Shown here one piece after another: positions 1,438 to 53,307 of a stretch of DNA of 64,000 nt. Source of the DNA: Halobacteriovorax marinus SJ. GTDB taxonomy: Bacteria > Bdellovibrionota > Bacteriovoracia > Bacteriovoracales > Bacteriovoracaceae. The notes beneath the pieces are model-generated. The model made no database searches, was not told the origin of the DNA, and saw only the letters and a program-made list of their open reading frames with translations. The stretch is from assembly GCF_000210915.2 (NCBI RefSeq), contig NC_016620.1, positions 1,302,001 through 1,366,000 of the forward strand, in the 5' to 3' direction. The position numbers and the translations under genes were made by a program. The first letter of the stretch is position 1. Every line of letters begins with the position of its first letter.

Positions 1438-1439
1438 CG

Positions 1440-7829: not shown

Positions 7830-7926
7830 TTCTTCCCCTAGAGTTTTTTTGCAAAATTAAAATATTAATTTCAAAGAGTCTAGGAGGCGTGTAAGTGTTA
7901 CTCGACAAGATTCTGTCAGAAAATGA

Positions 7927-9261
7927 TTAGGCCATGGGTACGAGAGTTGATTTAACTACTCGAAATTTAAAGAAAAACACACAGCTTAGCCCAACAGACA
8001 TTATCGTGAGCCCTATGGCGAGTCCCGCCCAAAGCCCTGCTGCTTCCATTCCCTTGCTCGTGGCGAGCCAATATCCAATAGGGATACCTATACACCAGTT
8101 GAAAATGAGGGATAAGATCATTGGATGCTTTGTCTCTTCGAGACCTCTAAGTATTCCCCAGAGTGTGACTTGAATTCCATCAGGAATTTGAAAAAGCCCA
8201 ACATAGAGCAGTAGGCCTGCGCTATAGGAGATAAGCTCTGGATCATCAGTTGCAAAGCGAACAAGAATATCTGGAAAACTTAAGTACATAGCACAAGTTC
8301 CAATCATTATTATAGCAACCATAATGATGGAAGAGAGTGAGTAAATTAAAATCCCTTGCTGGCTACCAGCACCATATTCTTTTCCTACTTTTACAGAGGC
8401 AGCACTTGAGATGGCCAAAGGAATCATAAAAGTACAACTCGCAAGATTGATAACAATATTGTGCGAAGCTGAGGCGATAATTGACATTTTTCCAATCAGG
8501 ACAGTCACTGCTGAAAACATCAGAACTTCGCTTAAAGTTCCAAGCCCAATAGGGATACCAAATTTATAGATTCTCTTAAAGAGTACTTGATTAAAGTTCC
8601 AATCAATTTCAAACTTAGCTTTAGTGTAAATGAAGAGTGCACCAAACATAAGTGTTCTTGAAATAAGAGTTGCTAGGGCCGCACCTTTTATTCCCATTTC
8701 TGGGAAACCAAATTCTCCAAAGATAAAAATATAATTCATTCCAACATTAATTACGTTGAAGAAGAGTATTAGGGAATTTGAGAAGATATTCTTATCCCAA
8801 GCTTGCAGGTATTCTTTTGATATTTGAAAGAGTATCGCAGGTATAATACTAGGTCCCGCTATTAAAATATAATCTTTAATTAGGGGAGTTATAGTAGGGT
8901 TAAAATTAAAAAGTGGAAGCGCTACGATGAGTGCTCCTATGGCCACGAGAAGTCCCACACTAACAGTGAGCATTAAATAATGGGCATTGGCAAAAATAGA
9001 TTTATCTTTTTCGTTCTTCCCTCTGAATTGGCTAGTAAGAGGACCGACGGCAAATGTAATCCCAAGTCCAAACATTAATAGAGGTGCTAAGAGACCATTG
9101 GCCACCCCAAGGGCCGCCACAACATCATTGGAATATCTACCGGCAACTATTATATCTCCAATCCCAAAAAGCATTTGACCAACTTGTCCTGCGATAAGTG
9201 GGATTGAGAAGAGAAAAATCTCTTTTATAGTAGATAGATAGGTCTTTTTCATGAAAATCAT
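7927..9261 (-). CDS. MATE family multidrug efflux transporter (NorM-like)
   Basis: A 444-residue polytopic protein with about 12 membrane helices arranged as two repeats. The N-terminal bundle shows I-P-L-I-A-G-Q-V-G-Q-M and G-I-G-D-I-I-V-A-G-R-Y-S, the second repeat starts at K-F-G-I-P-I-G-L-G-T-L-S-E, both typical of MATE exporters that swap Na+ or H+ for organic cations. Length is the family norm. Two starts 9 bases apart are possible (9261 or 9252); neither has a clear Shine-Dalgarno sequence. The gene stands alone, divergent from the RND-type gene at 9356 across a 94-base gap. Confidence 0.9.
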   Translation of the reverse strand: MIFMKKTYLSTIKEIFLFSIPLIAGQVGQMLFGIGDIIVAGRYSNDVVAALGVANGLLAPLLMFGLGITFAVGPLTSQFRGKNEKDKSIFANAHYLMLTVSVGLLVAIGALIVALPLFNFNPTITPLIKDYILIAGPSIIPAILFQISKEYLQAWDKNIFSNSLILFFNVINVGMNYIFIFGEFGFPEMGIKGAALATLISRTLMFGALFIYTKAKFEIDWNFNQVLFKRIYKFGIPIGLGTLSEVLMFSAVTVLIGKMSIIASASHNIVINLASCTFMIPLAISSAASVKVGKEYGAGSQQGILIYSLSSIIMVAIIMIGTCAMYLSFPDILVRFATDDPELISYSAGLLLYVGLFQIPDGIQVTLWGILRGLEETKHPMILSLIFNWCIGIPIGYWLATSKGMEAAGLWAGLAIGLTIMSVGLSCVFFFKFRVVKSTLVPMA

Positions 9262-9355
9262 TTATCAGTAGTGTTGTTATTATGCAATCTATAGCAGATA
9301 ATTATAATGTTAATTATCAACTTGATTCATCTACTAATAAATATAGAGTAAAAAA

Positions 9356-11644
9356 GTGCATAATAAAATAAGAAATAGACTTGTCGACTTTGCTGTACTT
9401 CATCCTTATAGATGTCTAGTTATTGCACTTCTTCTATTTTTAAGTGGACTGCCATTTCTTTCAAATACGAGAATGGACTTCTCTGCCAAAGTTTGGTTTG
9501 CAAGCCACGACCCCAATATTAAAACTTTAGAGACATTCGAGAGAACATTTGGAAATGATGAGGCAGCAACTCTCATTATCGAGTCAGATAAAGATATATT
9601 TAATCCGCACTTCATGGATATTTTAAATAAGTTAACTGAGAAGATGTGGAAAGTTCCAGAGGTGATGAGAGTTCAGTCTTTAACTAACTTTTATTGGACG
9701 AGATCATTTGAGGATGAAATTCTAACTGAAGAGTTTCTGTATGCTGAAAAATTAAATGACCAACAATATCTTAATGAAAAGAAAGTGTCTGCTCTAGAGC
9801 ACAAAGTCATTCCTGGCTACTATATTAGTGAAGACGCTAAGAGTGCTTCTATCTATGCGTATATTTCTCATAACCCTGATGTCGCTCCGGATTACGCTAA
9901 AATTACTGAGGGATTAAAAGAGGTTACTAAGGAATTTGAAAATGAGCCTGGTATTAAATTTCACTATATGGGACAGCCTCCTCTTTCAGATCGTTTTCAG
10001 AAAGTATCTTTTGATGATTTAGGGACAATGGCCCCTCTTCTAATGTTACTAGTCATTATTTATCTCATCTTTTGTTTTAGATCAGTGATTGGTGTAGCGA
10101 TTCCAACTATTATTATTACGCTATCTCTAATATCTACAACAGCTCTAATTGGTGTTTTTGGGTTTACGATTAATAGTTTAACTTTTGTTTTACCCTCAAT
10201 TTTAATTGCAATTTCGGTGGCCGACTCTGTTCATATTATGGCCGCATTCTACGATGAATTCTCTAAGAAAGGTGATTGCTTTCATGCCTGTACTCACTCT
10301 TTAAGAAAGAATTTATGGCCAATATTTCTAACGACATTCTCAACGATGATTGGCTTTTTCTCCCTTTACTCAAGTGATATTAAGCCAGTTTCAGACCTTG
10401 GAGTCTTAGCGGGAGTGGGTACTTTTCTGGCCTTCTCCTATACGTACTTAACAACAATTCCACTACTCATAATCTTTAATAAGAATAGCGCCTCGAAAAG
10501 CTTAAACACTAAAACTCTTTCCGAGAGTGCTGTGAGAAGTTATCTCAACTTTGTTCGTGAGAAGAGAGTATGGATAATAACATTATTCATTTTAATTTCT
10601 GGATCTTTTACTTATTTAGCTCTTCAAAATGAGATCAACTCTGACCCCTATACTTACTTCTCTGAAAGTGACCCTATTTCGAAGGGAAATCGCTTTGTTT
10701 TAAATTCCTATGGAGGAGTCGGGGGGCCTGAGCTTATTGTTGATTCCGGTGAGCCTGGTGGAATCACTTCTCCTGAGTTCTTGTATAAAGTAGAGCTTTT
10801 TCAAGATTGGCTTGAAGATAAAGAGTATGTGAATAAATCGGTGAGTATAATTAATATTCTCAAAGAGATGAATCAATCTCTCAATGGTGGAAAGAAAGAA
10901 TTCTTCAAAATCCCTGAGAGAAAAGATCAAATTGCTCAAGAGCTCTTCATGTATACCATGTCACTTCCGGTGGGAATGGATTTAAATAATAGGATGGATC
11001 TCTCGCAACAGAAATTGCGCCTCTCCGTGCTGTGGTCTCTCCAAACTTCTAAAGATTCTTTAAAGGGCGTAGAGGATTATGAACAGAAGGCTAAAGAGAT
11101 AGGCCTCAATATCAAAACGACAGGTAAGCCAATACTCTTTCATAGAATGAATAGTTATGTTGTCTACACTTTCTTTACATCAATTGCTATGGCCCTCGTG
11201 CTCATAACAATTATTATGATCTTTATCTTTAAAGATTTAAAGTTAGGTCTATTGAGTCTCATCCCTAATATATTACCAATCGTTTTTGGTGCGGGAGCGC
11301 TTACTCTCTTGGACACCCCCATTGATATTGGATGTGCAATAGTGGCCTCTGTGACTCTTGGGATTGCTGTAGATGATACGATACATTTTCTAAGTCACTA
11401 CAATCTTCTTCGTAGAAGCGGAATGAATATCTATGACTCCATGTTTAAGGTATTCACTTCAACAGGGCTTGCATTAATAGTTACTACCGTAATCTTAGTT
11501 TCTTGTTTTGGACTGTTTATGTTTGCGAACTTAACTCCGAACATAAATTTCGGAATTCTTTGCGCTTTAGTTCTCTCTCTCGCTCTTGTTACTGACTTGC
11601 TCTTGTTGCCTGCTATTATTTTTTGTTTTAAAGACCGAGAGTAG
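9356..11644 (+). CDS. RND superfamily exporter (MMPL / HAE-3 type)
   Basis: A 762-residue membrane protein starting at GTG 9356. Layout: one helix near 20-38, a large periplasmic loop to about 215, five helices to about 370, one near 400-420, a second periplasmic loop, then five helices at 600-760. That is the duplicated 12-helix RND plan. Both halves have conserved intramembrane motifs (A-D-S-V-H-I-M and A-V-D-D-T-I-H-F-L), the latter typical of the hopanoid/lipid and MMPL-like exporters. There is no adjacent membrane fusion protein, which fits the HAE-3/MMPL subgroup rather than AcrB-type pumps. Likely exports a lipid or hydrophobic compound; substrate unknown. Ends overlapping the PilZ gene by 17 bp. 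Confidence 0.88.
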   Translation: MHNKIRNRLVDFAVLHPYRCLVIALLLFLSGLPFLSNTRMDFSAKVWFASHDPNIKTLETFERTFGNDEAATLIIESDKDIFNPHFMDILNKLTEKMWKVPEVMRVQSLTNFYWTRSFEDEILTEEFLYAEKLNDQQYLNEKKVSALEHKVIPGYYISEDAKSASIYAYISHNPDVAPDYAKITEGLKEVTKEFENEPGIKFHYMGQPPLSDRFQKVSFDDLGTMAPLLMLLVIIYLIFCFRSVIGVAIPTIIITLSLISTTALIGVFGFTINSLTFVLPSILIAISVADSVHIMAAFYDEFSKKGDCFHACTHSLRKNLWPIFLTTFSTMIGFFSLYSSDIKPVSDLGVLAGVGTFLAFSYTYLTTIPLLIIFNKNSASKSLNTKTLSESAVRSYLNFVREKRVWIITLFILISGSFTYLALQNEINSDPYTYFSESDPISKGNRFVLNSYGGVGGPELIVDSGEPGGITSPEFLYKVELFQDWLEDKEYVNKSVSIINILKEMNQSLNGGKKEFFKIPERKDQIAQELFMYTMSLPVGMDLNNRMDLSQQKLRLSVLWSLQTSKDSLKGVEDYEQKAKEIGLNIKTTGKPILFHRMNSYVVYTFFTSIAMALVLITIIMIFIFKDLKLGLLSLIPNILPIVFGAGALTLLDTPIDIGCAIVASVTLGIAVDDTIHFLSHYNLLRRSGMNIYDSMFKVFTSTGLALIVTTVILVSCFGLFMFANLTPNINFGILCALVLSLALVTDLLLLPAIIFCFKDRE

Positions 11645-40660: not shown

Positions 40661-40707
40661 CATAAACCTTAGAAATACAGACCTATTGGAATAGAAGACT
40701 TTTGTTT

Positions 40708-41880
40708 ATGCAGAATAAGAAGGGTAGCCCTAGGGCCACAGCAATCAATAAGAAATTAGTCAGAAATAGAGCGCAAGATGAATCTCAGCTCGACTTGCTG
40801 TCGTATATTTCTAATCAGAATATTGCAGTGTCGAGACCTTCAAATATTACATGTATTAGTAGTGCGAAGAGACCAAAGGCCATTACTAGAAATCGTAAAT
40901 TCTCACTTCCAATTAATGTGGATAGGAATAAAGTCTTTAAGAACTTCATCTGTGGAGAGTCAAACTCAAGGGCCTATAAAGTCATGGAGTCTACTCTTAA
41001 TTCTAAGAATATTGATTACCAAATCATCTATATATGTTCTTTGAGTGGATTGGGAAAGAGTCACTTACTCTACGCAACCGCCAACGCTCTCTTTGAAAAA
41101 ACAGCTAAAAAGATTTGTTACTTTCACGGAAAAGAATTTATTTATAATTTCGATGCTCAAGTCGAGAATTTAGATTCTATTGCTGCAGTATTTGTCGATG
41201 ACTTAGATGAAATTACTTATGATATTGATTTACAAGACCGCTTTTCACGTAATTTTGATTTGCTTAAAAGAAGTGGAGTTCAAATTTTCTTAGCGGGCTC
41301 AATTCTTCCAAAGCATATGAAGATGGCCAATGCTAAGTATGCCAATAGAGTAGGTGGTGCTCTCGTTGAGAAGATTAATAAAATTGATAGAGATTTGGCG
41401 TCTAAGATTTTAGATAATCTCTCAACAATTCATAATTACCAACTGAGTCCAGATGTGAGTGACTTGCTCGTAGATTGCTTTCACTATCATGTCTATGGGC
41501 TTGAGAGTGCTCTTTTAAAGCTCAAGAGTTATAGTGAAACTTTTAGTAGTAACGTCGATATCAAAATTGCACTAAAAGAGCTCAAGATTCTTGGACCTGT
41601 CTTAGATAAGAATATAAATTCAAAGAAGATTATCTGCAGAGTATGTGAATTCTACAAAGTAGATGTCGAGGATTTATTTTCTAAGAATAGAAAGAAAGAA
41701 GTTTCTTTTGCTAGACATGTTTGTATGTACATTTTAAAAGATAGAAATGGTCTATCTCTTTCTCGAATCGCAAGACTCTTCAATAGAGATCATACATCTG
41801 TTCTTTATGGTGTGAATAAGGTTATGGCCGAGATTCAAAATAATAAGAAATTTAGAAAAGATATTCACGAGTTGGTTTAA
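40708..41880 (+). CDS. DnaA paralogue (AAA+ and DnaA domain IV)
   Basis: A 390-residue protein. After a ~75-residue basic, poorly structured N-terminus come the DnaA core elements: I-C-G-E-S-N-S-R-A-Y (compare V-x-G-x-S-N in DnaA), Walker A S-L-S-G-L-G-K-S-H-L-L, Walker B V-F-V-D-D-L-D, and an R-x-x-x-A-L-V-E-K-I-N-K-I-D-R-D segment at the Arg-finger place. The C-terminus carries DnaA domain IV with G-L-S-L-S-R-I-A-R-L-F-N-R-D-H-T-S-V-L-Y-G-V minus small changes, i.e. the box-binding helix. Unlike Hda it therefore keeps a DNA-binding domain. No dnaN, gyrB or rpmH is nearby, so it is probably not the main initiator. Walker A ends G-K-S, not G-K-T. TTG 40702 is an alternative start. Confidence 0.82.
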   Translation: MQNKKGSPRATAINKKLVRNRAQDESQLDLLSYISNQNIAVSRPSNITCISSAKRPKAITRNRKFSLPINVDRNKVFKNFICGESNSRAYKVMESTLNSKNIDYQIIYICSLSGLGKSHLLYATANALFEKTAKKICYFHGKEFIYNFDAQVENLDSIAAVFVDDLDEITYDIDLQDRFSRNFDLLKRSGVQIFLAGSILPKHMKMANAKYANRVGGALVEKINKIDRDLASKILDNLSTIHNYQLSPDVSDLLVDCFHYHVYGLESALLKLKSYSETFSSNVDIKIALKELKILGPVLDKNINSKKIICRVCEFYKVDVEDLFSKNRKKEVSFARHVCMYILKDRNGLSLSRIARLFNRDHTSVLYGVNKVMAEIQNNKKFRKDIHELV

Positions 41881-41886: not shown

Positions 41887-41905
41887 GGCCTCAATCCGTG
41901 AGGCC
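41887..41905. terminator. Bidirectional intrinsic terminator
   Basis: Perfect 7-bp GC-rich stem GGCCTCA/TGAGGCC with a 5-base loop between the convergent dnaA-like gene (stop 41880) and the gliding operon (last stop 41921). The minus-strand flank TTTCTATTAA is T-rich, so it probably ends the ~11-kb gliding transcript. Confidence 0.72.
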
Positions 41906-41920: not shown

Positions 41921-43795
41921 TTAAATTTTTGATTTTTCAGATAAGAAGTTAAGTGGTTGCTTAACGTCTACTACACCGCCACCCTTAGGCTTAGGGAATT
42001 GAATAAGTTTAAGAACACCTGTCATACAATTAGTTCCTTTATTAGAAAATTGTGAACCCTTTGTTTTAATTCTTACTCTTTGAGCTTTACCTGCTGAGTT
42101 GATTCTAAAGTGTAGATCCATTACACCTTTAGCGTGCTCGTTTCTATACTCAAGCTCTTGCTGGTAACAGTGCTTAAATTGTGGCAAGTACTCTCTTAGA
42201 ATCTTTCTAAGTAATTCTGGGTCCATTGAACCAAGAACAACTGCTTTTTGATCTGTATAAGTCGTATCAATTCCAGATTTACTTGCAAGACCTTTAGATC
42301 CTGATGATGTGTCAAAACTTCCTCTGAAATCCTGACCAAGACCACTTGTGGCATTGTTATTTGCTGCCTTTATATCAGATGTTGTTGCACTCTTAGCAGA
42401 ACTTCCTATCGCATTAGCATTTGAGTTTGAGTTCTTAACCACTTTTGCAGATTTTGAACCGGTACTTCCAAAGAATGAGGCCATTGATTTATTCATTTTG
42501 AATTTAAAGGACTTCATCTGTCTCTTACTTTTTACATTCTGAGACTTTGCCGCAGCTTTTGCCTGTTTTTGTGCTGGCTTAGGAGTTTGCTTTGGAACAG
42601 GTTTCTTTTGGGTATCCTGTTTCTTTGCAAATTGAGGTTTCTTATCATTTTGTTTCTCTTTCTTAACTCCTGTATCAACTTCAGTCTTGCTCACTTCACT
42701 TGAAGTTTTAGAGTTATTCTTTTCAGGAGCTTTTACTGCTGGTCTATAGATGACTGCTACTTTTTTCTCCTCCTCTTGTGTCGGAATATCTATAAAGAGA
42801 AGTAGAAGCATCAAACTCATAACAACAGAGAAGACCTTTGCTGTCTGTTTTTGAAAATCTCTGTCTCTTCCAAAGAATGGAGTACTTCTTAAGTGAGGAG
42901 GAGCATCAGCGATCTTAATAAGGACTTGTGTTGTCCCCTTTGTATAAGAGATTATTTCGTCATTCTTTAGGCTATAATTATTTGAAACTTCTTCATTTGT
43001 AAGAAGTGAAGTGCAATTATGTCCATCAATTTCTTTTATTTTAATATTGCTGTCACTTATGCTTAGAAATGGAATATTCTCTTCGCTATCAAAACTTGGT
43101 AGCTGAAAAGTATCTTTCTTTCTGTCGTGTGCAGAGACTCTGATGTCTCCATTCTTAAGTGGGAAGTAATCAATTGAAAGAGCAACTCCCATAGATAGAA
43201 CAGTTATTTGAACTGCCTTAGCATCGTTCTTTCTTGCTATAGGAAGAAACTCTTTAGTTTCATTTACCTCTACATAATTCTTTGGATCAATATTTTCTAC
43301 TAGATTTAATTCGTTTGCGTGAGAGTAATTCTCTTCGTCGAATTTGATGTCACAATATTCTCCATCAATAATTACAAGGCCAGGAACTGGAGGTAAAACC
43401 GGGGTAGGATGTCTATCCTCCAGCTCCTGGATTGTATGAATATCCATATCCTCATCTTCAATGACAGTATCATTCCTTTGAAGTTCATCAATTACTTCAT
43501 CTAGATTAAAAATCTCATTTGCGAATTGAATATTATCTCCAGGATATAAGATTCCTGAGTCTACTCTTTCTGAGTTGATATATGTTCCGTTATTACTTTC
43601 AAGATCGATAATTTTAGCACCACCATCTTGGTTAATTATAAGAATGGCATGATAGGCCGAAATACTACTATCTTTAATTTGAATATCACATTTCTCACTT
43701 GAGCCAACTAAGAGCTTTTTCTTGGTCAATGTGAACTCAAGATTATGTCCCGTTAACTTTAGTCGGCTGTAGTCTTTAGTTTTTGACAGCAACAC
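41921..43795 (-). CDS. FHA/TonB-like gliding machine protein (GltG/PglI-like)
   Basis: A 624-residue protein in three parts: an N-terminal FHA phospho-threonine-binding domain (about 10-95, with S-S-I-S-A-Y-H and N-N-G-T-Y-I-N), a ~220-residue middle region, one membrane helix near 322-340, a long Lys/Gln/Pro/Ala-rich periplasmic linker (350-520), and a C-terminal AgmX/PglI-type domain (D-P-E-L-L-R-K-I-L-R-E-Y, with Cys pairs) resembling TonB ends. This cytoplasm-to-periplasm design is that of Myxococcus GltG, which links the motor to the outer envelope. Last gene of the operon; overlaps the TPR lipoprotein gene by 20 bp. Confidence 0.8.
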   Translation of the reverse strand: MLLSKTKDYSRLKLTGHNLEFTLTKKKLLVGSSEKCDIQIKDSSISAYHAILIINQDGGAKIIDLESNNGTYINSERVDSGILYPGDNIQFANEIFNLDEVIDELQRNDTVIEDEDMDIHTIQELEDRHPTPVLPPVPGLVIIDGEYCDIKFDEENYSHANELNLVENIDPKNYVEVNETKEFLPIARKNDAKAVQITVLSMGVALSIDYFPLKNGDIRVSAHDRKKDTFQLPSFDSEENIPFLSISDSNIKIKEIDGHNCTSLLTNEEVSNNYSLKNDEIISYTKGTTQVLIKIADAPPHLRSTPFFGRDRDFQKQTAKVFSVVMSLMLLLLFIDIPTQEEEKKVAVIYRPAVKAPEKNNSKTSSEVSKTEVDTGVKKEKQNDKKPQFAKKQDTQKKPVPKQTPKPAQKQAKAAAKSQNVKSKRQMKSFKFKMNKSMASFFGSTGSKSAKVVKNSNSNANAIGSSAKSATTSDIKAANNNATSGLGQDFRGSFDTSSGSKGLASKSGIDTTYTDQKAVVLGSMDPELLRKILREYLPQFKHCYQQELEYRNEHAKGVMDLHFRINSAGKAQRVRIKTKGSQFSNKGTNCMTGVLKLIQFPKPKGGGVVDVKQPLNFLSEKSKI

Positions 43796-44660
43796 GATTT
43801 ACCCCTTTTTTATTATTTGCATCCTTGCTGTCTTTTTCTTCCTTAATTCTTTCTAATTCAATATCAATTTTCTTATTTAATTCTCTTGAAGCTGTAGCGA
43901 TTTCATCAATAATTGTCGCTCTTTGTTTTCCGATAATTTCTTTTGCTTCTGCGTAGTTTCCAAGCTCATAATAAAGGAGGGCGACATATAATGAGATATC
44001 TTCTCTAGTTAATTGCTTAGAATTAAATTTTCCCGCCCAGTAATTTGCTCTTTTATAGTCTTTACTAGCAATTTCGATGGTCATCATGGAAAGTATTAGG
44101 TCAACATCACCTTGATTCTTTCTTACTAGAGGAGTGATAAGAGACCTTGCTTTTTCTAAGTGATTAAACTTGATATAAAGCTGCGCCAAGTTATACTTTG
44201 GTACATTAGATGTAGGAGCTAATTTAATAGACTTTTCTAAAAGTGGAAAAGCATCATCAAAGTTTCTGGCCTTCATTGCTACTAGAGCTTTATTATTCAA
44301 AATAGCGGCTTGAGTGTATTTAGACCCAGAAAGGGCGTAATCATAGTAGAAGTTGGCCTTTAAGTGACTTCCATATAATTGATAGCAAATACCAATATAG
44401 AGCCAGTACTTTTCGTTAGTCTTATACTCACCAAGCTTATCTTGAAATGATTTAAGAGACGTCGAAAAGCTCCCACGATAGCAATTTGAGAGTTCTTTTT
44501 TTAAGAAGTCATTCTCATTTACCTGGGTAAGCCTTGTATGTCCAAATCTCATGAATGATTCATTTGAGAATGCATCATCGTTATTATCTAACTTACTCAC
44601 AATCTTATGAGATCCACAACTTGCTAATAGTAGTAGAGATATTACTGTAAGTATCTTCAT
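43776..44660 (-). CDS. TPR lipoprotein (GltE/AglT-like)
   Basis: A 294-residue lipoprotein: lipobox L-A-S-C with Cys15, then tandem TPR helices from about 70 to 240 (for example W-L-Y-I-G-I-C-Y-Q-L-Y-G, A-A-I-L-N-N-K-A-L-V-A, V-P-K-Y-N-L-A-Q-L-Y) and a charged C-terminal coil. In Myxococcus, GltE is a TPR lipoprotein in the outer membrane that connects the periplasmic machine to surface components. The similarity in size, export class and position supports this role. Overlaps neighbours by 1 and 20 bp. Confidence 0.72.
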   Translation of the reverse strand: MKILTVISLLLLASCGSHKIVSKLDNNDDAFSNESFMRFGHTRLTQVNENDFLKKELSNCYRGSFSTSLKSFQDKLGEYKTNEKYWLYIGICYQLYGSHLKANFYYDYALSGSKYTQAAILNNKALVAMKARNFDDAFPLLEKSIKLAPTSNVPKYNLAQLYIKFNHLEKARSLITPLVRKNQGDVDLILSMMTIEIASKDYKRANYWAGKFNSKQLTREDISLYVALLYYELGNYAEAKEIIGKQRATIIDEIATASRELNKKIDIELERIKEEKDSKDANNKKGVNRVAVKN

Positions 44661-47539
44661 TACTTCATACCTTGGTTATCTAATGAAATAACTAATTGGG
44701 ATGCTGGATATCTCATTAATACTTCAGTTCTTATATTTCTTTCATTTAAGAAATTATAATTGTCATAAGAGAGAATATTATTCGCTTTAATTGTATTCTT
44801 AGTCTGCTCTTTATAAGAGTCGACCTCTTTTTTGATCTTATGGTAGAGAGGGGCCATTCCTCCAATAAACATTTTTATTTCTTCAGAGTTAAATCCCTTT
44901 GGTCTATAGGCCTTAATGCTTACTAGGAATTCTTCATACTTCTTAGAGATAAAATAGCTAACTTTAGGAGTCATGATTTGATGTTTGAAGTCTTGAATCT
45001 TAGAGCCTTGTTGAACTATTCTTTTTATTAGTGCGAAATTTGACTCAATCTCTTTGTTAAATATATCCCCATTAAATTCAATATTACTGAATTTAAATTC
45101 TACTTTCTCGTACTGTAGAATATATGAGTTGTATGACATGATTTGATAAACTTTATTTGATTGATTACTTTTTAAAATATTAATCATCTCATTAGCATTC
45201 TTGTATTCGTTCTTTGCGCTATATTGCCAGTATCTATTTTCGGCAAGAGTGTTGATAAGATCTTTCTTGATGAAGTTAGGATAGAGTGCTGTATAAAATT
45301 TTAACTTCTTTAAATCGCCCTCTGTGGCGAAGTCTCTAGCGTATCTCTCAATATCAGTCTTTATAATATCGAGATTAATTGAGCACTTTGTAGATAGTTT
45401 ATTAAGTATTTTAACTGCTTTATAATTATTCTCAATAATTGAATAATTTAAGGCCTTCTTAAAAATACTATTCTTTGATTTAAACTCTTTAGAACAATAC
45501 TTATTTAAAGATGTATAACTTAGAGATAGTGCTTTTTTAAATTCCTGTGCTTGAGCATACTCAGTTATAACTCTGTCAATTGTTGTGATCTCTTTGAAGA
45601 TCTCTTGTTGAGTGTCAATTGATAAACTATACTTTAGCCACTTCCAAGATGTTGCAATATCATTTTGTTTTAAGGCAAGTAGTGAAAGTCTAAAAGACGT
45701 CTGTATTTTAATCTTAAGAGGGTACTTTTCATTTTCAAGTATTGTTAAGTAACTTTGCTTAGCTTTTGCATAATCACCTGATGCAATTGTTTTATCAATT
45801 TCATTAAAGAGGAGACCAGCTAAAATTACGACTGCTTTTTTAATATAGACTTTCTCAAAAGATAGAAAACCTTTATTGAATTCTCCTATCCAGTGAGAGA
45901 TTTCTTGAACATCTTTCATTTTTACATAATGATCAAAGACCTTAGCAAACATTCCTTTCTGTGATTTTATATCCTGTGGGAAGTGGAAGTTGTAGGCCTT
46001 TACAACATTAATTGCTTGCTTTAACTTCTTCTTTTTAAAGTAGATTGTGAAGAGCTTGGGATAGATTAGCTGACTTTTCTTATCTTTAGGCCATAGACTT
46101 ACATGGTTACTGTAAACATAAGTTTTATACTTATAGTTAGATTGACCAGTCTCTTCTAACTTCGTTAATGTGGCCAAGAGAGAGTTTATGACTTTCTTTG
46201 AGAAAGCGTCATCCCATTTTTCTTTCTTTTCCTTTTTCACTAATTCTAAGACTGTAGAGTACTTCTTATAGGCCCTTTCAAATAGTCTCACTGAGTATAG
46301 TGTCTCGGCCTGGAAGAAGAGGTATTCATTCTTCTTGGTAGAATCTATATTGATCAGAATTTCAAAGTAGGTGAGGATATTATTTAATTTCCTCTCATTA
46401 AGTGCACCAGCTGTGAATTGTTCTCTTTTTGAGAGTCTAATTTGTAAATAACCTACGTATGATTTAATTGATGAAATTGAAACTTCTAGTTCTTCATCTT
46501 TTAAATGTTTAAGATCATATATTTTTGAAAGCTCTTTTGCTGAGCTTAAATGCATTTCTTCTTGCTTAAATGTTCTATAGAACTCTAGGTTATAATTATA
46601 ATAAATAATTTGTTCGCTAAATTGCTTTCTTTCTTTTGCTTGGGCGAGTCCTTTTACTAGAATATCATTTACTTCTTCAAACTTCTTTGTCGTCTGAGCT
46701 CTAGTGGCCATTTTTGTAATATATTCTGCTGGTTCTTCAACATTTTCTAGGTAGAACTTTACCCCTTCATTTATTTTATCATTCTGAATATAGAATATAC
46801 TAATGGCGTCTAAGACCTGAGATTCAACAGTTACGTAACGTGGACTCTTACTTATTTGATAGGCCTTAAGAATATGCTCAAGACCTAGGGCCAATCTCTT
46901 AACTTTCAATAAACACCAAGCAAGATTATAGTGATGCTTTGCATACCACTCGTCACCTTCATTCTTAATTACATCAATATAGTACTTGATGGCCCTGCTA
47001 TACTTTTTGTCGTTATAATATAGTTCTGCTAGGGCCGTTTTAATACTGTGTACAATAGGGGATGCGTGAGGAGCTACTCTAAGGGATTTCTTTAAGTAGT
47101 ACTCTGTTTTTTTACCCTTGTTGAAATCTCTCTCATTGAGAGCAAGTGTATAATAGATTGCTCCATTACTTCTATAGTTAGGCCATCTCTTTGTAATATA
47201 GAGACCAAGTTTCTCTACCTTCTTATTTAATAATGCTGATTGCTTGAAGAAATGTCTTTTCTTAAGCTTTGGGTTTCTATTCTTTAAAAACCTATTATTC
47301 TCTTCTTCTTTTATTATTTTTAAATTCTCAGAGTATAGCTCAAGTAGTCTATATTCTAGATTTGGTCCTCTTTTTCTTATCTTCTTAATTGTTTTGATTT
47401 CACCATGAATCATCTTCACCAGGCGATTTCTCTTGTTCTTTTCAAAAGAGAGAGCTTTCTTCTCAGCACTATAAGTGTTTAAAGATATTAAAGTTATGAA
47501 TATGAAGTAACTAATAAATTTCATTATATTAATTCTCAC
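44660..47539 (-). CDS. Large periplasmic TPR protein (GltD/AgmU-like)
   Basis: A 959-residue protein with a signal peptide (about 6-23 from the second start) and TPR-like helix pairs along most of its length, such as L-A-E-L-Y-Y-N-D-K-K-Y-S-R-A-I-K-Y-Y and A-W-C-L-L-K-V-K-R-L-A-L-G. Rich in Lys, Ile and Asn. In the Glt system the large TPR protein GltD forms a periplasmic bridge; size and context fit. The start may be GTG 47539 or ATG 47524; the former overlaps the TolR gene by 11 bp. Confidence 0.7.
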   Translation of the reverse strand: MRINIMKFISYFIFITLISLNTYSAEKKALSFEKNKRNRLVKMIHGEIKTIKKIRKRGPNLEYRLLELYSENLKIIKEEENNRFLKNRNPKLKKRHFFKQSALLNKKVEKLGLYITKRWPNYRSNGAIYYTLALNERDFNKGKKTEYYLKKSLRVAPHASPIVHSIKTALAELYYNDKKYSRAIKYYIDVIKNEGDEWYAKHHYNLAWCLLKVKRLALGLEHILKAYQISKSPRYVTVESQVLDAISIFYIQNDKINEGVKFYLENVEEPAEYITKMATRAQTTKKFEEVNDILVKGLAQAKERKQFSEQIIYYNYNLEFYRTFKQEEMHLSSAKELSKIYDLKHLKDEELEVSISSIKSYVGYLQIRLSKREQFTAGALNERKLNNILTYFEILINIDSTKKNEYLFFQAETLYSVRLFERAYKKYSTVLELVKKEKKEKWDDAFSKKVINSLLATLTKLEETGQSNYKYKTYVYSNHVSLWPKDKKSQLIYPKLFTIYFKKKKLKQAINVVKAYNFHFPQDIKSQKGMFAKVFDHYVKMKDVQEISHWIGEFNKGFLSFEKVYIKKAVVILAGLLFNEIDKTIASGDYAKAKQSYLTILENEKYPLKIKIQTSFRLSLLALKQNDIATSWKWLKYSLSIDTQQEIFKEITTIDRVITEYAQAQEFKKALSLSYTSLNKYCSKEFKSKNSIFKKALNYSIIENNYKAVKILNKLSTKCSINLDIIKTDIERYARDFATEGDLKKLKFYTALYPNFIKKDLINTLAENRYWQYSAKNEYKNANEMINILKSNQSNKVYQIMSYNSYILQYEKVEFKFSNIEFNGDIFNKEIESNFALIKRIVQQGSKIQDFKHQIMTPKVSYFISKKYEEFLVSIKAYRPKGFNSEEIKMFIGGMAPLYHKIKKEVDSYKEQTKNTIKANNILSYDNYNFLNERNIRTEVLMRYPASQLVISLDNQGMK

Positions 47540-48056
47540 TCTTTACAATAAATTTAAACTTTGGAAATCCTGCTGTTGCACTTGCATGCATTACTTTTTG
47601 CATATCTGCGTATGAGAGAGATTGATCTAGTACAATATTAATTTGTTTATTTGATCTCTCTTTACTCTTGATTAGATCTTTATCAACTGATGAGAGATTT
47701 CTACTTTTAAACTCTTTAAGCTCCTTATCTCCCTTCTCTTTTAATTCTTTTAGCTTCTTCGATAGAAAAGCTATATTAGAGTTAGACTTTGGAATTTTTC
47801 CTACCTGCTTATTGTCAATAAAGATCTCTCTACTCTTATTAACTTGTATTGTTACAGATTGGTTACCGTGTAGGGTAGAGATTGAATCTGGTAGTTCTAA
47901 ATTATCAGTTAAGTCCAATTTTAGATCAGATGGGTTATAACTCTTTAATAGAAATACTAGAAGTATAACTAAGATATCTAGTAGAGATGTAATATCTATA
48001 TCTAGATCTTTTTTACTCTTCTTTATAACTGAACGTCTCTTATTTCTAAGTGCCAT
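47529..48056 (-). CDS. ExbD/TolR-type motor subunit (AglQ/AglS-like)
   Basis: A 175-residue protein with a basic start, one helix D-I-T-S-L-L-D-I-L-V-I-L-L-V-F-L carrying the proton-binding Asp, and a periplasmic domain ending in the ExbD-like Q-I-N-I-V-L-D-Q-S-L-S-Y-A-D-M-Q-K-V. A second TolR-type gene lies just upstream. A single TolQ with two TolR-like proteins is the AglR-AglQ-AglS arrangement that powers Myxococcus gliding. Which of the two corresponds to AglQ or AglS I cannot say. A charged insert of about 40 residues (K-E-L-K-E-K-G-D-K-E-L) is extra to the fold. Confidence 0.82.
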   Translation of the reverse strand: MALRNKRRSVIKKSKKDLDIDITSLLDILVILLVFLLKSYNPSDLKLDLTDNLELPDSISTLHGNQSVTIQVNKSREIFIDNKQVGKIPKSNSNIAFLSKKLKELKEKGDKELKEFKSRNLSSVDKDLIKSKERSNKQINIVLDQSLSYADMQKVMHASATAGFPKFKFIVKSEN

Positions 48057-48065
48057 AAAATCACC

Positions 48066-48578
48066 TTATATAACAGTTTCAAAAATAATTTGATCAAATA
48101 AAGTCTTTGTTCTTACAAGTTTTCCCTTCTTCGATTTAGCTGAAAGCTCTGGGAATTCACTTCCTACACCAGTTACTGAATCCATGATTTTTACAATTTG
48201 TTTGTAATTTACACTCTTTGAAGGGCTAATAATGATAGATCTCTCTTCAATATTCTTTAATTTAATATCAATTAAGATCTTTTTAAGTTTGGAGAGATCG
48301 AATTCTTCACCTAATTTTGTAATTTTTGACTTAGTTGTTCCTTCAACACCAGTCTTTATTTCTATTTCGTTATTCGATATCTTCAGAGTTAAATTGAGTG
48401 GCTTTTCATCACTTTTCTGAGTATCAATTGTTGCAATTGCAGGTGCATCACTTCCAATCTCATAGATCTCTACAAATTGAGCACTCATCAGTAAAAAGAA
48501 GATGAATATAAATACTGCATCTAGTATCGGAATTAAATTCAATTTAGGAATTTCTTTCTTTTCTCTTCTTGTTCTCAT
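48066..48578 (-). CDS. ExbD/TolR-type motor subunit, second copy
   Basis: A 170-residue paralogue with helix L-I-P-I-L-D-A-V-F-I-F-I-F-F-L-L (Asp in the proton position) and a ~120-residue periplasmic domain ending with I-I-I-S-P-S-K-S-V-N-Y-K-Q-I-V-K-I-M. It shares little sequence with the neighbouring copy, so the duplication is old and the two probably form a heteromeric motor with the TolQ-like channel. Gaps of 9 and 22 bases to its neighbours put it in the same operon. Confidence 0.82.
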   Translation of the reverse strand: MRTRREKKEIPKLNLIPILDAVFIFIFFLLMSAQFVEIYEIGSDAPAIATIDTQKSDEKPLNLTLKISNNEIEIKTGVEGTTKSKITKLGEEFDLSKLKKILIDIKLKNIEERSIIISPSKSVNYKQIVKIMDSVTGVGSEFPELSAKSKKGKLVRTKTLFDQIIFETVI

Positions 48579-48600
48579 TTTCTACCCCTAAAAAATATCT

Positions 48601-49302
48601 CTATGCTGCTTCGCTAGTGCTCTTTGGCAATGGAGGCATTTTTCTTTTCTTTGTTCCTAGAAGGTCCACAAGCTTAAGTGAGTATTCTTCAATTTCAGCT
48701 ATGATCTTTTCACTCTTATTAGAGAGAATATTATGAATAACCATAATACTGATAGCAGAAATAAGCCCAAATGCTGTCGTGTTCATCGCTTTCGAAATAC
48801 CAAGAGCTAGTAGCTTTGCTTTTGATGATGGGTCAGCATTGGCAACGGCTGCAAATGATTCAATTAGACCGTAGATTGTTCCAAGTAGACCGATTAGAGT
48901 AGAAACGTTAGCAACAAGCCCTAAATAACTCATACGCTTATCTACTTTTGGTGTAACCTCTAGTATCGTTGAATCTACGGCGTCTTGGATTTGGTCTTTT
49001 TCTTGATTGGCCCTTTTAAGACCTGACTTTAATACCATTGGTAAAATGGCCTTAGAGTTAGAACAGCTCTGTATGGCCTTCTCTACGTCATTATTTAGAA
49101 CATGTTTTTTAATCATATTCATTAGTGAGTTACCGTCGATATCATAACTGAAGAGTGACTTAATTCTCTCTAGCGCTATTGCGATACCAAATGTCCAAGT
49201 TGCAAGAATAATCCACATGAATATCCCACCTTCATCCATGAAAATAGCTAATGTTTGTAAGAATGATTGATCCGTCACAGTCTGTGCTACTTGATTATCC
49301 AT
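48601..49302 (-). CDS. MotA/TolQ/ExbB-type channel subunit (AglR-like)
   Basis: A 233-residue membrane protein. A helix near 25-45 (W-I-I-L-A-T-W-T-F-G-I-A), a cytoplasmic stretch, then the conserved pair M-S-Y-L-G-L-V-A-N-V-S-T-L-I-G-L-L-G-T and A-M-N-T-T-A-F-G-L-I-S-A, the TolQ/ExbB channel core with its Thr pair. With the two TolR-like proteins it should form the proton-driven motor. The ORF order (channel, then both TolR genes) matches the aglRQS locus. Confidence 0.87.
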   Translation of the reverse strand: MDNQVAQTVTDQSFLQTLAIFMDEGGIFMWIILATWTFGIAIALERIKSLFSYDIDGNSLMNMIKKHVLNNDVEKAIQSCSNSKAILPMVLKSGLKRANQEKDQIQDAVDSTILEVTPKVDKRMSYLGLVANVSTLIGLLGTIYGLIESFAAVANADPSSKAKLLALGISKAMNTTAFGLISAISIMVIHNILSNKSEKIIAEIEEYSLKLVDLLGTKKRKMPPLPKSTSEAA

Positions 49303-49312
49303 TTTCTACCCC

Positions 49313-49552
49313 TTATCTTAAATTTCTTATGTCTTTTATTGATTCTTCATTAAAGTCGAATTTTTCATAGAGCGCTCGCTCAAATACTTTTCTATCTCTT
49401 TCTTTAACCGATAAATCACCTGGGGCAAGGAGTTGACCTTTAACCTCTAGATTTCCTAAGTCAAAGCTTTCGTATTTCTTATATTCGACAATGACATTCT
49501 TATCATTTGCATATGTACTAAAGCTTAATAGCAAGATTATTAAAACTCTCAT
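49313..49552 (-). CDS. Small periplasmic protein of the gliding operon (CglF-like?)
   Basis: A 79-residue protein: signal peptide (1-15, ending T-Y-A-N) and a short mature part with F-D-L-G-N-L-E-V-K-G-Q-L-L-A-P-G-D and an Arg/Glu-rich helix ending in F-N-E-E-S-I-K-D-I-R. The G-x-L-x-x-P plus R-D-R-K-V-F-E-R pattern recalls short proteins found next to gliding genes in myxobacteria, such as CglF, but the link is weak. Two bases separate it from the TPR gene, so it is surely part of the operon. Confidence 0.65.
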   Translation of the reverse strand: MRVLIILLLSFSTYANDKNVIVEYKKYESFDLGNLEVKGQLLAPGDLSVKERDRKVFERALYEKFDFNEESIKDIRNLR

Positions 49553-49554
49553 CT

Positions 49555-50991
49555 CTACCTCTTACTTACTTTCTTCTTAACGTTTACAGTCGTGCAATTA
49601 GACTTTAGACCGTATGAGTAATCTCCTAGTTCATCGGCCCAGAACGAACCTTCAAAATTCCAGAAATCATCATCTATAGTCATTTTTACGTTATCTAAGC
49701 TCCCACGACTTCTATTTGAGATAAGCTCTTTATTGCTATATAAGAGACTTCTTTTCTTAGACATAATTTCTAATTTGATATTAAACATTTCATAACTATA
49801 TTTATGAATATCGTTAATAAATGTGAACATCTCTTTTTTTACGTAATGATTTAAGTGTTGAGTACGCCAATTAATAGATCTCTCAACTTGCTTAATTAAA
49901 TACTTTGTAAATTGATTTTGCTTTCTCTTATTTAAGTATTTCAGCTCATTCTTAGCTTTCTTAAAGCTCACTAAGTCGACACTAAACTTAACTTTCTTTC
50001 TGATTTGAGTTACAAGATTTCTAATATATGGGTTTAGCTCTTGCGTTTCCTTAAGTGAGCTAAATACTAGATTGATGAAGTAGGTATGTGAGTCTTTATT
50101 TGGTAAGACTATCTTCTTTAACTCATCACTTCTAGACTTAAATACTTTATAGTATTGATCAATAGTAGCTAAACTGTCATTGTAAAGACATAATCTATAG
50201 TAGTTTAACGCATTAAGAACCTCTGACTCTGGAAAGAAATAACTTGAGAGTAGAGGTGATCTATAAGTAACGACTAGACCAAGTGATCTATTAAAGTCTT
50301 CTAGGTAATAATTTGCCCAAGCCTTCTCAATTAATGTGTATGGCCATCTATAAGATGTTTTTGGTATCTCATTATAAGTTTGTATGGCCTTAGCATATTG
50401 CTTTTGCTTGTAGTAAAGTCTTGCAATATGCATTGTGCATGATTCACTTAATACAGTGAAGTATCTCTTTAATTTCTCTTTATCTGATTTTTTCTTATAG
50501 TCATTTGCGACTTTAATACATTTCTCAAATCTATCTTTAGATCTTGAGATATCACCAAGAATTTCTCTTGCTGTACCAGCTGTATATAAGGCCTCTGGTG
50601 CAAAACGGTTATTTAGAGGGATTCTCTCTGCTACAATAACTGCATTCTTATAATTCTTTTGTCTAAACATTTTCAATGCATAGATTAATTGTAGCGTTGG
50701 TGAATCGTGCTTTATAAGGTCTTTATTTGATAGACCGGCAAGAGAATTTGATCCCGATTTTAAAATTAAAATCTCAAGCTTTTCTTCAAAATCCTTATCT
50801 AGTTTCTCTGACTCTATAATGTGTTCTGCAGCGAACGCAAGTGAAGAGAAGTAGTACTTAGACTTAAATAATTCATTAAATATTTTTAGGTTCTTACCTT
50901 TCTCATTCGAAAAGAATGTTTTCTCTGCTACACCAAAATGGGCGTTAGCTGAAAAAGTAAATAAAAGAACCATTGATAGTAGTAATTTCAT
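49555..50991 (-). CDS. Periplasmic TPR protein (GltC-like)
   Basis: A 478-residue exported protein with a signal peptide (1-17, S-A-N-A then H). TPR-like repeats span about 30-330 (A-P-E-A-L-Y-T-A-G-T-A-R, A-R-L-Y-Y-K-Q-K-Q-Y-A-K-A-I-Q-T-Y), followed by a long helical coiled part to about 440. In the Glt model, GltC is a TPR protein of the periplasmic/outer-membrane complex encoded next to GltA/GltB barrels; here a barrel gene also lies 9 bases upstream. Two Cys near the N-terminal TPR region and one near the end. Confidence 0.68.
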   Translation of the reverse strand: MKLLLSMVLLFTFSANAHFGVAEKTFFSNEKGKNLKIFNELFKSKYYFSSLAFAAEHIIESEKLDKDFEEKLEILILKSGSNSLAGLSNKDLIKHDSPTLQLIYALKMFRQKNYKNAVIVAERIPLNNRFAPEALYTAGTAREILGDISRSKDRFEKCIKVANDYKKKSDKEKLKRYFTVLSESCTMHIARLYYKQKQYAKAIQTYNEIPKTSYRWPYTLIEKAWANYYLEDFNRSLGLVVTYRSPLLSSYFFPESEVLNALNYYRLCLYNDSLATIDQYYKVFKSRSDELKKIVLPNKDSHTYFINLVFSSLKETQELNPYIRNLVTQIRKKVKFSVDLVSFKKAKNELKYLNKRKQNQFTKYLIKQVERSINWRTQHLNHYVKKEMFTFINDIHKYSYEMFNIKLEIMSKKRSLLYSNKELISNRSRGSLDNVKMTIDDDFWNFEGSFWADELGDYSYGLKSNCTTVNVKKKVSKR

Positions 50992-51000
50992 TTTATTTCC

Positions 51001-51726
51001 TTAAAAGCTAAAGCCTACTGATAAAATAGCATCTGTTGTTCCTCTCATCTTAGAAGATGATGGAACAGAATTGATAACTGGACCTGGTGCCTTATACATC
51101 GTTCTTTGAAGATCTATTCCGATAAACCAATTCTTAGAAGCGTGTACTCTAAGTCCTGTCTTGGCAACAGCACCTGTGTAGGACTCACTTGTAAATGTTG
51201 AAGATAGGTTAGGGTCTGATACAGTATCCTTATTTGACTCTGTATCTATTTTAGCTACACCTAATCCGAAGCTCCAATCAAAGTAGATAATTTTATTGAA
51301 TGTATTAATCTTTCCATAGAATGGAGACCATACACCCATAATCCCGTAAGAAGATGTTAGTCTTCTAATGAATGGAACACTTTGATTAATTCTTTGAAGG
51401 TTCTCATAAGCTTCATTATTTTTATTTGAGTAGCTATTGTAGAAACCTTCGATGGCCCACTCTTCATTTAGGTAGTAACCTGTTCTAAAGTTAATACCTG
51501 ATGTATCTTGGTATTCTCCACTTAAGTTTGAAAGATATCCAAGTTGGGCATAGATAGTATTTTTCTTCTTATATAATTTATTTTGTAGAACATAAACTTT
51601 CTTGTCAGGATCTAACCAGAGAAATTTATAGAGATCACTTTCATCTGCTTGGACCTTGAAAGATGACGCTCCGATTGTGAGCGCCATCATTGTATATGTT
51701 AATTTTCTACCCCTAGATAATTTCAT
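51001..51726 (-). CDS. Outer-membrane barrel of the gliding operon (GltA/GltB-like, OMP_myx_plus type)
   Basis: A 241-residue protein with a signal peptide (1-27). The mature start D-P-D-K-K-V-Y-V-L-Q-N-K-L-Y-K-K-K is the characteristic lead-in of the outer-membrane barrel family found in myxobacterial gliding loci. About eight amphipathic strands follow and the chain ends in a terminal F-S-F strand, the outer-membrane barrel signal. In Myxococcus GltA, GltB and GltH form the outer-membrane platform. It overlaps the VWA lipoprotein gene by one base. Confidence 0.78.
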   Translation of the reverse strand: MKLSRGRKLTYTMMALTIGASSFKVQADESDLYKFLWLDPDKKVYVLQNKLYKKKNTIYAQLGYLSNLSGEYQDTSGINFRTGYYLNEEWAIEGFYNSYSNKNNEAYENLQRINQSVPFIRRLTSSYGIMGVWSPFYGKINTFNKIIYFDWSFGLGVAKIDTESNKDTVSDPNLSSTFTSESYTGAVAKTGLRVHASKNWFIGIDLQRTMYKAPGPVINSVPSSSKMRGTTDAILSVGFSF

Positions 51727-52976
51727 TAATTAAACTCCTGTGTTTCAACAGCATAGCTAATCTCAATATTTGAACCTTCGTTTGGAACTTTATCTTGTTC
51801 AAACTTGATCGATCTAGACTGATTGTCATAGGTATAACCTGAACTTACTTTCGAACCATTAACACTTACTTCTACCTTGTCTTCATATGGTTTATTAGAG
51901 AGTGCAAAACTATCGATTAAGTTTACAATTTTTCCACCCATCTCTCTTAAAACTTGGTAGAAGTCATTCTTAATATGAGATGTCACACCACCAGTTTTAT
52001 CACTTACCTCAAGGTATCTATGTCCAATGGTCTCCCAGCTATTTCCAGTCTTCTTTGTATTAACAATTGAATACAACTTGATTAGACCCGATGACTTTTT
52101 AAGTTCTTTAAAGAAGTCTACATAAGACTGTGCTGTTGAGGATGATTGATCTTCTTCATCAGATACGTAGACAACAACAAGATAAGCTTCATTTCTCATC
52201 CAATTCTCTAGGTATCTATTTACAAATGATTTAGACGTTCTAAGTCCTTGCTCTCTACCTGACCCTCTTGTCCCCACTTTAATACAGCTTGCAAAGTCTT
52301 TTACAAATTTGCTTTCATTTGAAGTAGCAGCATTAGAGTCAAGAATTCTAAAATCACATACAGATCGACCATCTTTACTACTTGTTCCATCTGTAGTTGT
52401 AATCGCCATTTTAAAGTCGATTTTCTTTTCTAAGAATTCATGTATGAAGACATCAAAGTTATAGGCCAGAGCTTTTTGCTCATCACCCATTGAACCTGAG
52501 TCATCCACAACCCAAAGAATGTCTACTTTACCTTCTTTAGCCTCAGTCTGAGTAAACTTCTCAACCACATTCTTTAAAGTAATACCTGGTTCAGTAGGCT
52601 CAGTTGGTTCTGTCGGATCAGTTGGTTCCGTCACTACTGGGTCCGTTGGATCAGTAGGATTTGTCGGATCAGTTGGTTCTGTTACGACTGGGTCAGTTGG
52701 ATCCGTAGGATTAGTAGGATCTGTTGGCTCTGTTACAACAGGGTCTGTAGGATCTGTTGGAGTCGTAGGGTCAGTAGGTTCCGTTACTACTGGAACTTCT
52801 GGCTCACTAGGATTTGGAACTGGGATCTCAATTTCTGTTGGGAGATCATTATCAGCTACACCTGCTCCATTTAAAAACTTCTTTTCATAGAACTCTTGTT
52901 CATTACAAGAAGTCAGATTAATTAAAAGAGTTAAGAGTAAAAAGGTATCTCGTATCCTTGATGTTTTTAAAACCAT
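51726..52976 (-). CDS. VWA-domain surface lipoprotein (CglB-like gliding adhesin)
   Basis: A ~416-residue lipoprotein, first gene of the operon. The signal ends L-T-S-C (Cys24 from this start). A Pro/Thr/Asp/Glu linker with four 17-residue repeats follows, then a von Willebrand A domain from about 145 with MIDAS D-D-S-G-S-M and a later Y-V-S-D-E-E-D, and a ~50-residue beta tail. Myxococcus CglB is a VWA lipoprotein of nearly the same length that binds the substrate at focal adhesions; position ahead of barrel, TPR and motor genes makes the match convincing. Start: ATG 52976 has GGAG 6 bases upstream; ATG 52988 has none. Confidence 0.8.
   Translation of the reverse strand: MVLKTSRIRDTFLLLTLLINLTSCNEQEFYEKKFLNGAGVADNDLPTEIEIPVPNPSEPEVPVVTEPTDPTTPTDPTDPVVTEPTDPTNPTDPTDPVVTEPTDPTNPTDPTDPVVTEPTDPTEPTEPTEPGITLKNVVEKFTQTEAKEGKVDILWVVDDSGSMGDEQKALAYNFDVFIHEFLEKKIDFKMAITTTDGTSSKDGRSVCDFRILDSNAATSNESKFVKDFASCIKVGTRGSGREQGLRTSKSFVNRYLENWMRNEAYLVVVYVSDEEDQSSSTAQSYVDFFKELKKSSGLIKLYSIVNTKKTGNSWETIGHRYLEVSDKTGGVTSHIKNDFYQVLREMGGKIVNLIDSFALSNKPYEDKVEVSVNGSKVSSGYTYDNQSRSIKFEQDKVPNEGSNIEISYAVETQEFN
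52587..52787 (-). repeat. Four tandem 51-bp units (17-residue Pro/Thr repeats)
   Basis: Coding repeat in the VWA lipoprotein. Each unit reads about V-T-E-P-T-D-P-T-x-P-T-D-P-T-D-P-V; the last unit drifts to T-E-P-T-E-P. It forms a stiff, acidic stalk between lipid anchor and VWA head. DNA copies differ at third positions, so they are not fresh duplications, although length change by slippage is possible. Confidence 0.85.
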
Positions 52977-53307
52977 TACCGTCTCCATAACGGTCGCGAG
53001 ACTTATCTCTATTTGTAGAAATAAATGTGTCTTGCATATCCGGTTTTTCTGAGATTTTGTGGCGGCTTACATACTTTGATAACGAACGTACAACAAACAA
53101 AATCGGAGAAGTTCTTATTCCTTTTCTTACTTGTTAGATTAGCAAATTGAAAAATAGAGTAAATTTTTGAAAATATAATTTTGGACTTTTTTCTTTTTTT
53201 TAAGACACTTAGCTTGGAAAAAAGTGCTAAAAATGTGAAATTTTATTGATAATCTTTTTATCAAAAAATCGCCACGTATTTGTGTGGTAGTTTTATAAGT
53301 TGTTAAT
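52977..53307. promoter_or_regulatory. 331-base AT-rich control region of the gliding operon
   Basis: No credible gene. Just before the VWA gene, ACCGT/ACGGT (52978-52982, 52990-52994) can form a 5-bp hairpin with the GGAG ribosome-binding site in its loop. Upstream lie A/T runs (53160-53200, 53250-53270) and no promoter that I could fix with confidence. The promoter for the ~11-kb operon should be here, since the next gene upstream (53308) is on the same strand and could also read through. Confidence 0.45.

Follow-up and report, generated by a model that had tools for sequence, protein, structure and literature searches.

Could one operon supply the motor, the scaffold and the adhesin with which a bacterium glides? 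This question was raised by ten open reading frames on the minus strand of a 64-kb stretch of the Halobacteriovorax marinus SJ genome (G000:C1:1302001-1366000, hereafter the window). From 52976 down to 41921, they encode a VWA lipoprotein (V), an outer-membrane barrel (A), a TPR protein (C), a 79-residue exported protein (F), a TolQ-like channel (R), two TolR-like subunits (Q and S), a large TPR protein (D), a TPR lipoprotein (E) and an FHA protein with an AgmX tail (G). The transcription order is V-A-C-F-R-Q-S-D-E-G, and the spacings range from -20 to +22 bp (V/A -1, A/C 9, C/F 2, F/R 10, R/Q 22, Q/S 9, S/D -11, D/E -1 and E/G -20 bp). The first-pass annotation had described ten minus-strand genes in this order, with gaps of at most 22 bases or overlaps, as a complete gliding machine and a minimal gliding unit. 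The open reading frame calls confirmed the genes, their spacing and their order, and the operon is real and strongly conserved; the terms “complete” and “minimal gliding unit” overstate what it is. We read it, with a probability of roughly 55%, as an Agl/Glt-like force machine that spans the envelope and comes with a lipid-anchored adhesin of its own; its likeliest use would be slow gliding.

The proposed Agl/Glt membership was borne out by NCBIfam, as the best matches were to Agl/Glt models (GltC, GltG with its AgmX/PglI tail, and OMP_myx_plus; Table 1) and not to unrelated families, Tol-Pal or type VI secretion. G matched the GltG model with 109 bits (cut-off 650), its AgmX/PglI tail (NF033768, 1.5e-15) scored above cut-off, and its FHA domain reached 1e-15 in Pfam. 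The structure model of A had eight strands and folds like OmpA, OprF and OmpW. D, E and F of the window had no direct Glt match in NCBIfam and were assigned by position and through the profiles of their relatives. The D profile reached Myxococcota and Bdellovibrio-type D genes at about 1e-80 to 1e-120, and E homologues matched NF033758 GltE (9e-30 in locus L216, 1e-26 in L225 and 1.6e-7 in L238). The F profile reached proteins of L225 and L238 that match NF033764 CglF at 3e-16 and 4e-13; CglF is GltF (PMC4488436), and the NCBIfam model carries the former name. All seven members of the core defined by Luciano et al. (GltC, D, E and G with AglR, Q and S) were found in one cluster, and the Group A additions GltA and GltF were both present, the first by its OMP_myx_plus match and the second via L225 and L238. 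Because neither the GltC nor the GltG equivalog cut-off of NCBIfam was reached, the window proteins are best regarded as relatives, not one-to-one equivalents, of the Myxococcus xanthus parts.

The matches to TolQ, TolR and a TonB tail are generic, and the FHA domain weakly matches TagH (6e-5), as would be expected if a Tol-Pal, TonB/ExbBD or type VI-like system had been misread as Glt. The TolQ, TolR and TagH scores, however, were far below their cut-offs, the genome has separate TolQ/ExbB-type gene sets at other places, and the GltC, GltG, AgmX-tail and OMP_myx_plus matches point to Glt; we find such a misreading very hard to credit. As for Tol-Pal itself, TolQ scored 77 against 221 bits and the two TolR-like subunits 32 and 30 against 127 bits in NCBIfam, and the operon held no tolA, tolB or pal. 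Type VI secretion was represented by the weak TagH match alone, with no sheath, baseplate or TssJLM gene in the operon.

R, Q and S make up the set that characterizes an AglRQS-type proton motor, namely a TolQ-like channel and two TolR-like subunits with a membrane Asp. Thr142 and Thr176 of R (numbered from Met1) were conserved in all 134 homologues, as was the membrane Asp27 of S (134/134), and the membrane Asp20 of Q was kept in 89 of 134. The Q residue was present in the ten-gene clusters (type 1), in the type 2 clusters described below, in Bd0828-like clusters and in Bdellovibrio clusters with V last, but Asn, Ala or Ser took its place in the core clusters (C-D-E-R-Q-S-G) and in Bdellovibrio clusters with V first. 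Because Q and S both keep the membrane Asp, the window motor looks competent. In the V-first Bdellovibrio and core clusters, the first TolR-like subunit is without the membrane Asp, so that this motor subunit may be unable to carry protons.

These residues also bear on another possible use, that of an Nfs-like or core-complex-like machine moving envelope polysaccharide or other cargo, in which the VWA protein would be a periplasmic or outer-membrane assembly factor. The Nfs proteins of M. xanthus serve spore coat assembly, and we know of no VWA adhesin for that machine. They are paralogues of Glt proteins and comprise the barrels NfsA and NfsB and the TPR protein NfsC (PMC4488436; set beside the operon here by description), and many bacteria for which gliding is not known carry the C-D-E-R-Q-S-G core (PMC3169522). 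The window Q, unlike that of most core clusters scanned, keeps its Asp; the Group A genes and a MIDAS adhesin are also present, and the Pfam-tested neighbours included no polysaccharide genes. On this evidence, we judge a cargo-moving machine improbable.

A gene-order comparison across Bdellovibrionota and Myxococcota, which had been proposed as a check, found the V-A-C-F-R-Q-S-D-E-G order exact in 23 fetched loci of the family, or 21 distinct loci after two contigs fetched twice were dropped; the named relatives were Bacteriovoracaceae and Halobacteriovoraceae. Because the same genes stood in the same order in 21 distinct loci, the ten-gene arrangement is not due to chance. Among 192 Bdellovibrionota genomes, V was adjoined by A and C in 30 of the 30 best V-profile matches. 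Genomes of family f6, genus g70, which were taken as Bdellovibrio from their layout and their four AglR-type copies, held one V-x-R-Q-S-D-G-A-...-C cluster, two R-Q-S-D-(F)-G-A-C-V clusters and a fourth, A-A-C-D-E-F-G-R-Q-S, without V. V came first in the clusters at L196, L198, L200, L227, L229, L230 and L235, and last in those at L239, L240, L243 and L244. In four myxobacterial genomes (G040, G043, G044 and G046), V lay upstream of A-C, two positions upstream of the gltC copy that scored best on the M. xanthus model. V is a frequent and not accidental neighbour of Glt genes, and the linkage is common but not exclusive, since some V-type proteins are encoded a long way from any Glt cluster. 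From this pattern, a VWA adhesin would seem to be a regular Glt partner in Bdellovibrionota and part of Myxococcota, and not an oddity of M. xanthus CglB. The broader proposal, that the VWA lipoprotein is an ancestral, regular Glt part in two phyla and that M. xanthus with its unlinked CglB is derived, is tentative and on balance doubtful; if true, the operon would be a self-contained motor-plus-adhesin module powering predator movement along surfaces and prey. A variant layout was seen in locus L211 (genome G017, 789-10800), where a V-A-C-F-D-E cluster had strongly diverged R and S genes (8e-22 and 2e-7) relocated to the interval from E to G, which may mean that the motor was replaced.

NCBIfam likened V to a MIDAS adhesin (2e-21) and to CglD (2e-9), both far below cut-off. 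Against NF052240, the Bdellovibrio MIDAS family, V scored 76.6 bits and did not reach the threshold of 700, and 18 V relatives matched this model at E values of 1.7e-23 or weaker. The lipobox Cys, the EF and Lys of the motif CxxxEF[YFL]xK, and MIDAS Asp158, Ser160 and Ser162 were invariant in 18 V sequences. Among relatives, the tether from the Cys to the MIDAS ranged from 67 to 214 residues, and its composition shifted between Pro/Thr/Asp, Gly/Thr/Ser and Asp/Asn/Ser. The AlphaFold2 model showed a confident domain from about residue 133 and a disordered tether. Its VWA part aligned with integrin I-domains (Z up to 17.5, root-mean-square deviation 2.9, 184 aligned residues), and Foldseek ranked integrin beta headpieces at the top with TM-scores of 0.3-0.4, which are low because the remainder outside the VWA part does not superpose. 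A sequence search of the PDB returned repeat-driven matches only for the whole of V and none for the VWA part alone. An adhesin that a platform holds on display at the surface would require just such a conserved anchor and free tether; the exposure is presumed here. A second V-type VWA protein, 35% identical, was found in the window genome away from Glt clusters (G000:C1:3315458-3316363). In a metagenome-assembled genome (L018, 5713-6854, on a contig shared with L060), V was split into two open reading frames with the rest of the operon present; we put this down to a frameshift or to misassembly close to the repeat tether. Locus L215 (8225-10990) held two adjoining V-type genes (453 and 462 residues), with no Glt neighbours in the fetched stretch.

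The single operon had been set against the scattered loci of Myxococcus; the compact operon is real, but such compactness is usual outside Myxococcus, and outside Deltaproteobacteria the core Glt genes lie in one region (Luciano et al. 2011, PMC3169522). The same authors reported four expanded core complexes in Bdellovibrio without GltH, I, J or K, proposed bacteria with AglRQS and GltA-G as potential gliders, and named Bd0828-Bd0838 the best gliding candidate (PMC3169522). M. xanthus, which was not among the loci compared and whose gene list was taken from PMC3169522 and PMC4488436, shares with the operon the motor, parts of the GltA, C, D, E, F and G types and a VWA outer-membrane lipoprotein as adhesin (a putative one in the case of V), but its genes are spread over the G1, G2, M1 and cglB loci, and its machine further requires GltB, H, I, J and K. 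V is likened to CglB by its VWA/MIDAS domain, not by sequence, its weak matches being to the CglD and Bdellovibrio MIDAS models. Loci L218 and L221 were considered as separate aglRQS-type motors and set aside; they held only the R gene and were uninformative on M1.

Bd1473-Bd1483 of Bdellovibrio bacteriovorus is, like the window operon, a compact cluster with a TolQ/TolR/TolR motor, GltD-, GltG-, GltA- and GltC-like proteins and, at its end, the VWA/MIDAS lipoprotein Bd1483, a MIDAS-family protein (PMC11003981). It differs in gene order (V-x-R-Q-S-D-G-A-...-C, as seen in Bdellovibrio-type genomes), in a V of about 355 residues without the long tether, in a first TolR-like subunit without the membrane Asp and in its separate R clade. 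Bd0828-Bd0838, identified from position and layout with the A-A-C-D-E-F-G-R-Q-S clusters of L238 and L242, is likewise a single cluster, but it has a pair of barrels, lacks a VWA gene within it or next to it, and falls in a separate R clade. That motor, scaffold and VWA protein can share one operon is already on record in Bdellovibrio, though piecemeal; new here are the fixed V-A-C-F-R-Q-S-D-E-G order, the linkage of V to A and C, and the anchor-tether-MIDAS architecture of V.

The window genome also contains a second, paralogous cluster without a VWA gene (G000:C1:277k-290k; L047/L006). Its A-C-D-E-F-G and R-Q-S paralogues are about 27-58% identical to those of the operon, but R-Q-S is convergent and about 3 kb apart, and F adjoins G, not R. 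This type 2 layout, with no V in the fetched stretch, was found in 12 complete loci of the family and in more incomplete ones. A tree of R separated type 1 (support 99/92), type 2 (94/56) and the Bdellovibrio V-first clusters with their allies (90/93), and the Bd0828-like and V-last clusters formed two further groups (both 100/100); it is read as an unrooted grouping only, because the TolQ/ExbB outgroups are extremely long and the rooting is unreliable.

Two paralogous clusters in one genome would suit a division of labour in which the VWA-less cluster drives gliding, and the operon is a Glt-like adhesion or invasion motor without gliding that pulls the VWA adhesin, or gathers it, where the cell touches its prey. 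This is the main rival explanation, and several findings from Bdellovibrio agree with it: the VWA/MIDAS protein Bd0875 acts in prey invasion (PMC11003981), prey attachment fails in an aglS mutant (Bd0838; PMC6561027), and the four B. bacteriovorus operons listed by Lambert et al. have different expression patterns (PMC2797640). The comparable Bd1473-1483 operon, however, is tied to surface and biofilm behaviour, as insertions in aglR Bd1481 or the VWA gene Bd1483 reduced biofilm predation and mutants of the operon still made lytic halos on prey lawns (PMC2277423), and Bd1480 was induced on surfaces (PMC9140294). We hold a purely adhesive or invasive motor to be rather unlikely.

In a force machine with its own adhesin, the reading that we prefer, proton flow through R-Q-S would move G and the periplasmic TPR scaffold, G acting as the putative transducer by its cytoplasmic FHA domain and TonB-like periplasmic tail. 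The scaffold would engage an outer-membrane platform of A and C, which would hold V by the EFYEK anchor and allow the VWA domain to be displayed at the surface. There, with a metal ion linking it to the substratum or to prey, the domain could be dragged along. The machine would most likely serve slow gliding over surfaces, prey or biofilm, possibly along with firm attachment during invasion. We favour this explanation because of the family matches and the profile chains to GltE and CglF, the fixed gene order, the linkage and fold of V and the conserved motor residues, and also because of the mglA and mglB-like genes and the mutant and induction data from B. bacteriovorus (PMC2277423, PMC9140294, PMC6561027). 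In the window genome, mglA and an mglB-like gene (168 residues) adjoin recR; BMS_0053, of 168 residues, and BMS_0054 are the mglB-like/mglA pair of B. marinus (PMC3983030).

Several points weigh against gliding by this operon. That V is exposed at the surface and binds A or C is our inference, and the second, VWA-less cluster could be the gliding engine instead. The R tree placed the operon outside both the Bd0828-0838-like clade and myxobacterial AglR, and by this grouping it is not orthologous to the Bdellovibrio cluster rated closest to AglRQS by Luciano et al. A GltJ-type second AgmX protein was missing from the whole genome, in which the AgmX/PglI tails belonged to two GltG-like proteins only. 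Pfam and NCBIfam found no GltB, GltH, GltI or GltK in the operon, the rest of the genome not having been searched for each; GltH, I, J and K are all needed in M. xanthus. No data on gliding, localization or expression were found for the operon or the species. “Complete” lacks support because GltJ is missing from the genome and GltH, GltI, GltK and a second barrel from the operon, and “minimal gliding unit” because no gliding evidence was found and because of the orthology just described.

According to a 2026 review, Bdellovibrio glides by a motor, adhesins and a mode of force transmission that are all unidentified (PMC13104615). The operon is a testable candidate for the gliding or adhesion motor of Bdellovibrionota, as it offers candidates for motor, adhesin and force transmission in one transcription unit of invariant order, and one MIDAS residue and two membrane aspartates are sites that can be mutated singly.

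Table 1. Features of the operon and its flanks, in window coordinates.
Feature	Position	Strand	Evidence
V: lipoprotein; CNEQEFYEK after the lipobox, low-complexity tether, VWA/MIDAS domain (DDSGS)	51726..52976	-	NCBIfam, alignment, AlphaFold2
51-bp repeat array encoding the Pro/Thr/Asp-rich V tether	52586..52793	-	Tandem Repeats Finder score 227
A: 8-stranded outer-membrane barrel, GltA position (adjoins gltC)	51001..51726	-	TIGR04565 OMP_myx_plus 1.7e-32, above cut-off
C: GltC-like exported TPR protein	49555..50991	-	NF033756 GltC 4.1e-36, 125 bits (cut-off 450)
F: 79-residue exported GltF/CglF-like protein	49313..49552	-	No direct NCBIfam match; linked through relatives
R: AglR/TolQ-like channel	48601..49302	-	PF01618 1.2e-27
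Q: first TolR-like subunit, membrane Asp20 kept	48066..48578	-	PF02472 2.3e-13
S: second TolR-like subunit, membrane Asp27	47529..48056	-	PF02472 1.2e-15
D: large exported TPR protein, GltD position	44660..47539	-	Weak TPR matches in Pfam
E: TPR lipoprotein, GltE position	43776..44660	-	TPR_19 1e-12
G: GltG-like; FHA, membrane helix, Lys/Pro/Ala-rich linker, AgmX/PglI tail	41921..43795	-	NF033760 GltG 3e-31
Terminator-like stem, bidirectional, common to the 3' ends of the operon and the convergent dnaA-like gene	41887..41905	-	Consensus scan
Intergenic region, expected promoter and 5' leader	52989..53307	-	No open reading frame of at least 60 residues confined there

The 5' end of the VWA gene given in the first-pass annotation, 52976, held. 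The open reading frame finder placed the start at 52988, but several V relatives start at or near the same MVxxT position as the 52976 start and GGAG precedes the ATG there, so that 52976 is most likely the better start. Upstream is a gene-free gap of about 0.3 kb, in which a promoter scan of 52989..53307 gave no confident match; a hydrolase gene lies next to it, at 53308. Terminator-like matches in the region were about as many as in shuffles, and the stem at the end of the operon is therefore argued mainly by position. The sole other minus-strand match (52994-52978) sits at the very start of the operon, so that none falls between the operon genes. No tRNA or tmRNA genes were found in the window. 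The guanine-plus-cytosine content of the operon was 33.4%, compared with 36.3% for the window. Convergent with the operon and having a common terminator with it is a gene for a DnaA-like protein of 392 residues (40702-41880, plus strand) with DnaA ATPase and DNA-binding domains; this neighbour is retained by members of the genus as well as by L016 and L058.

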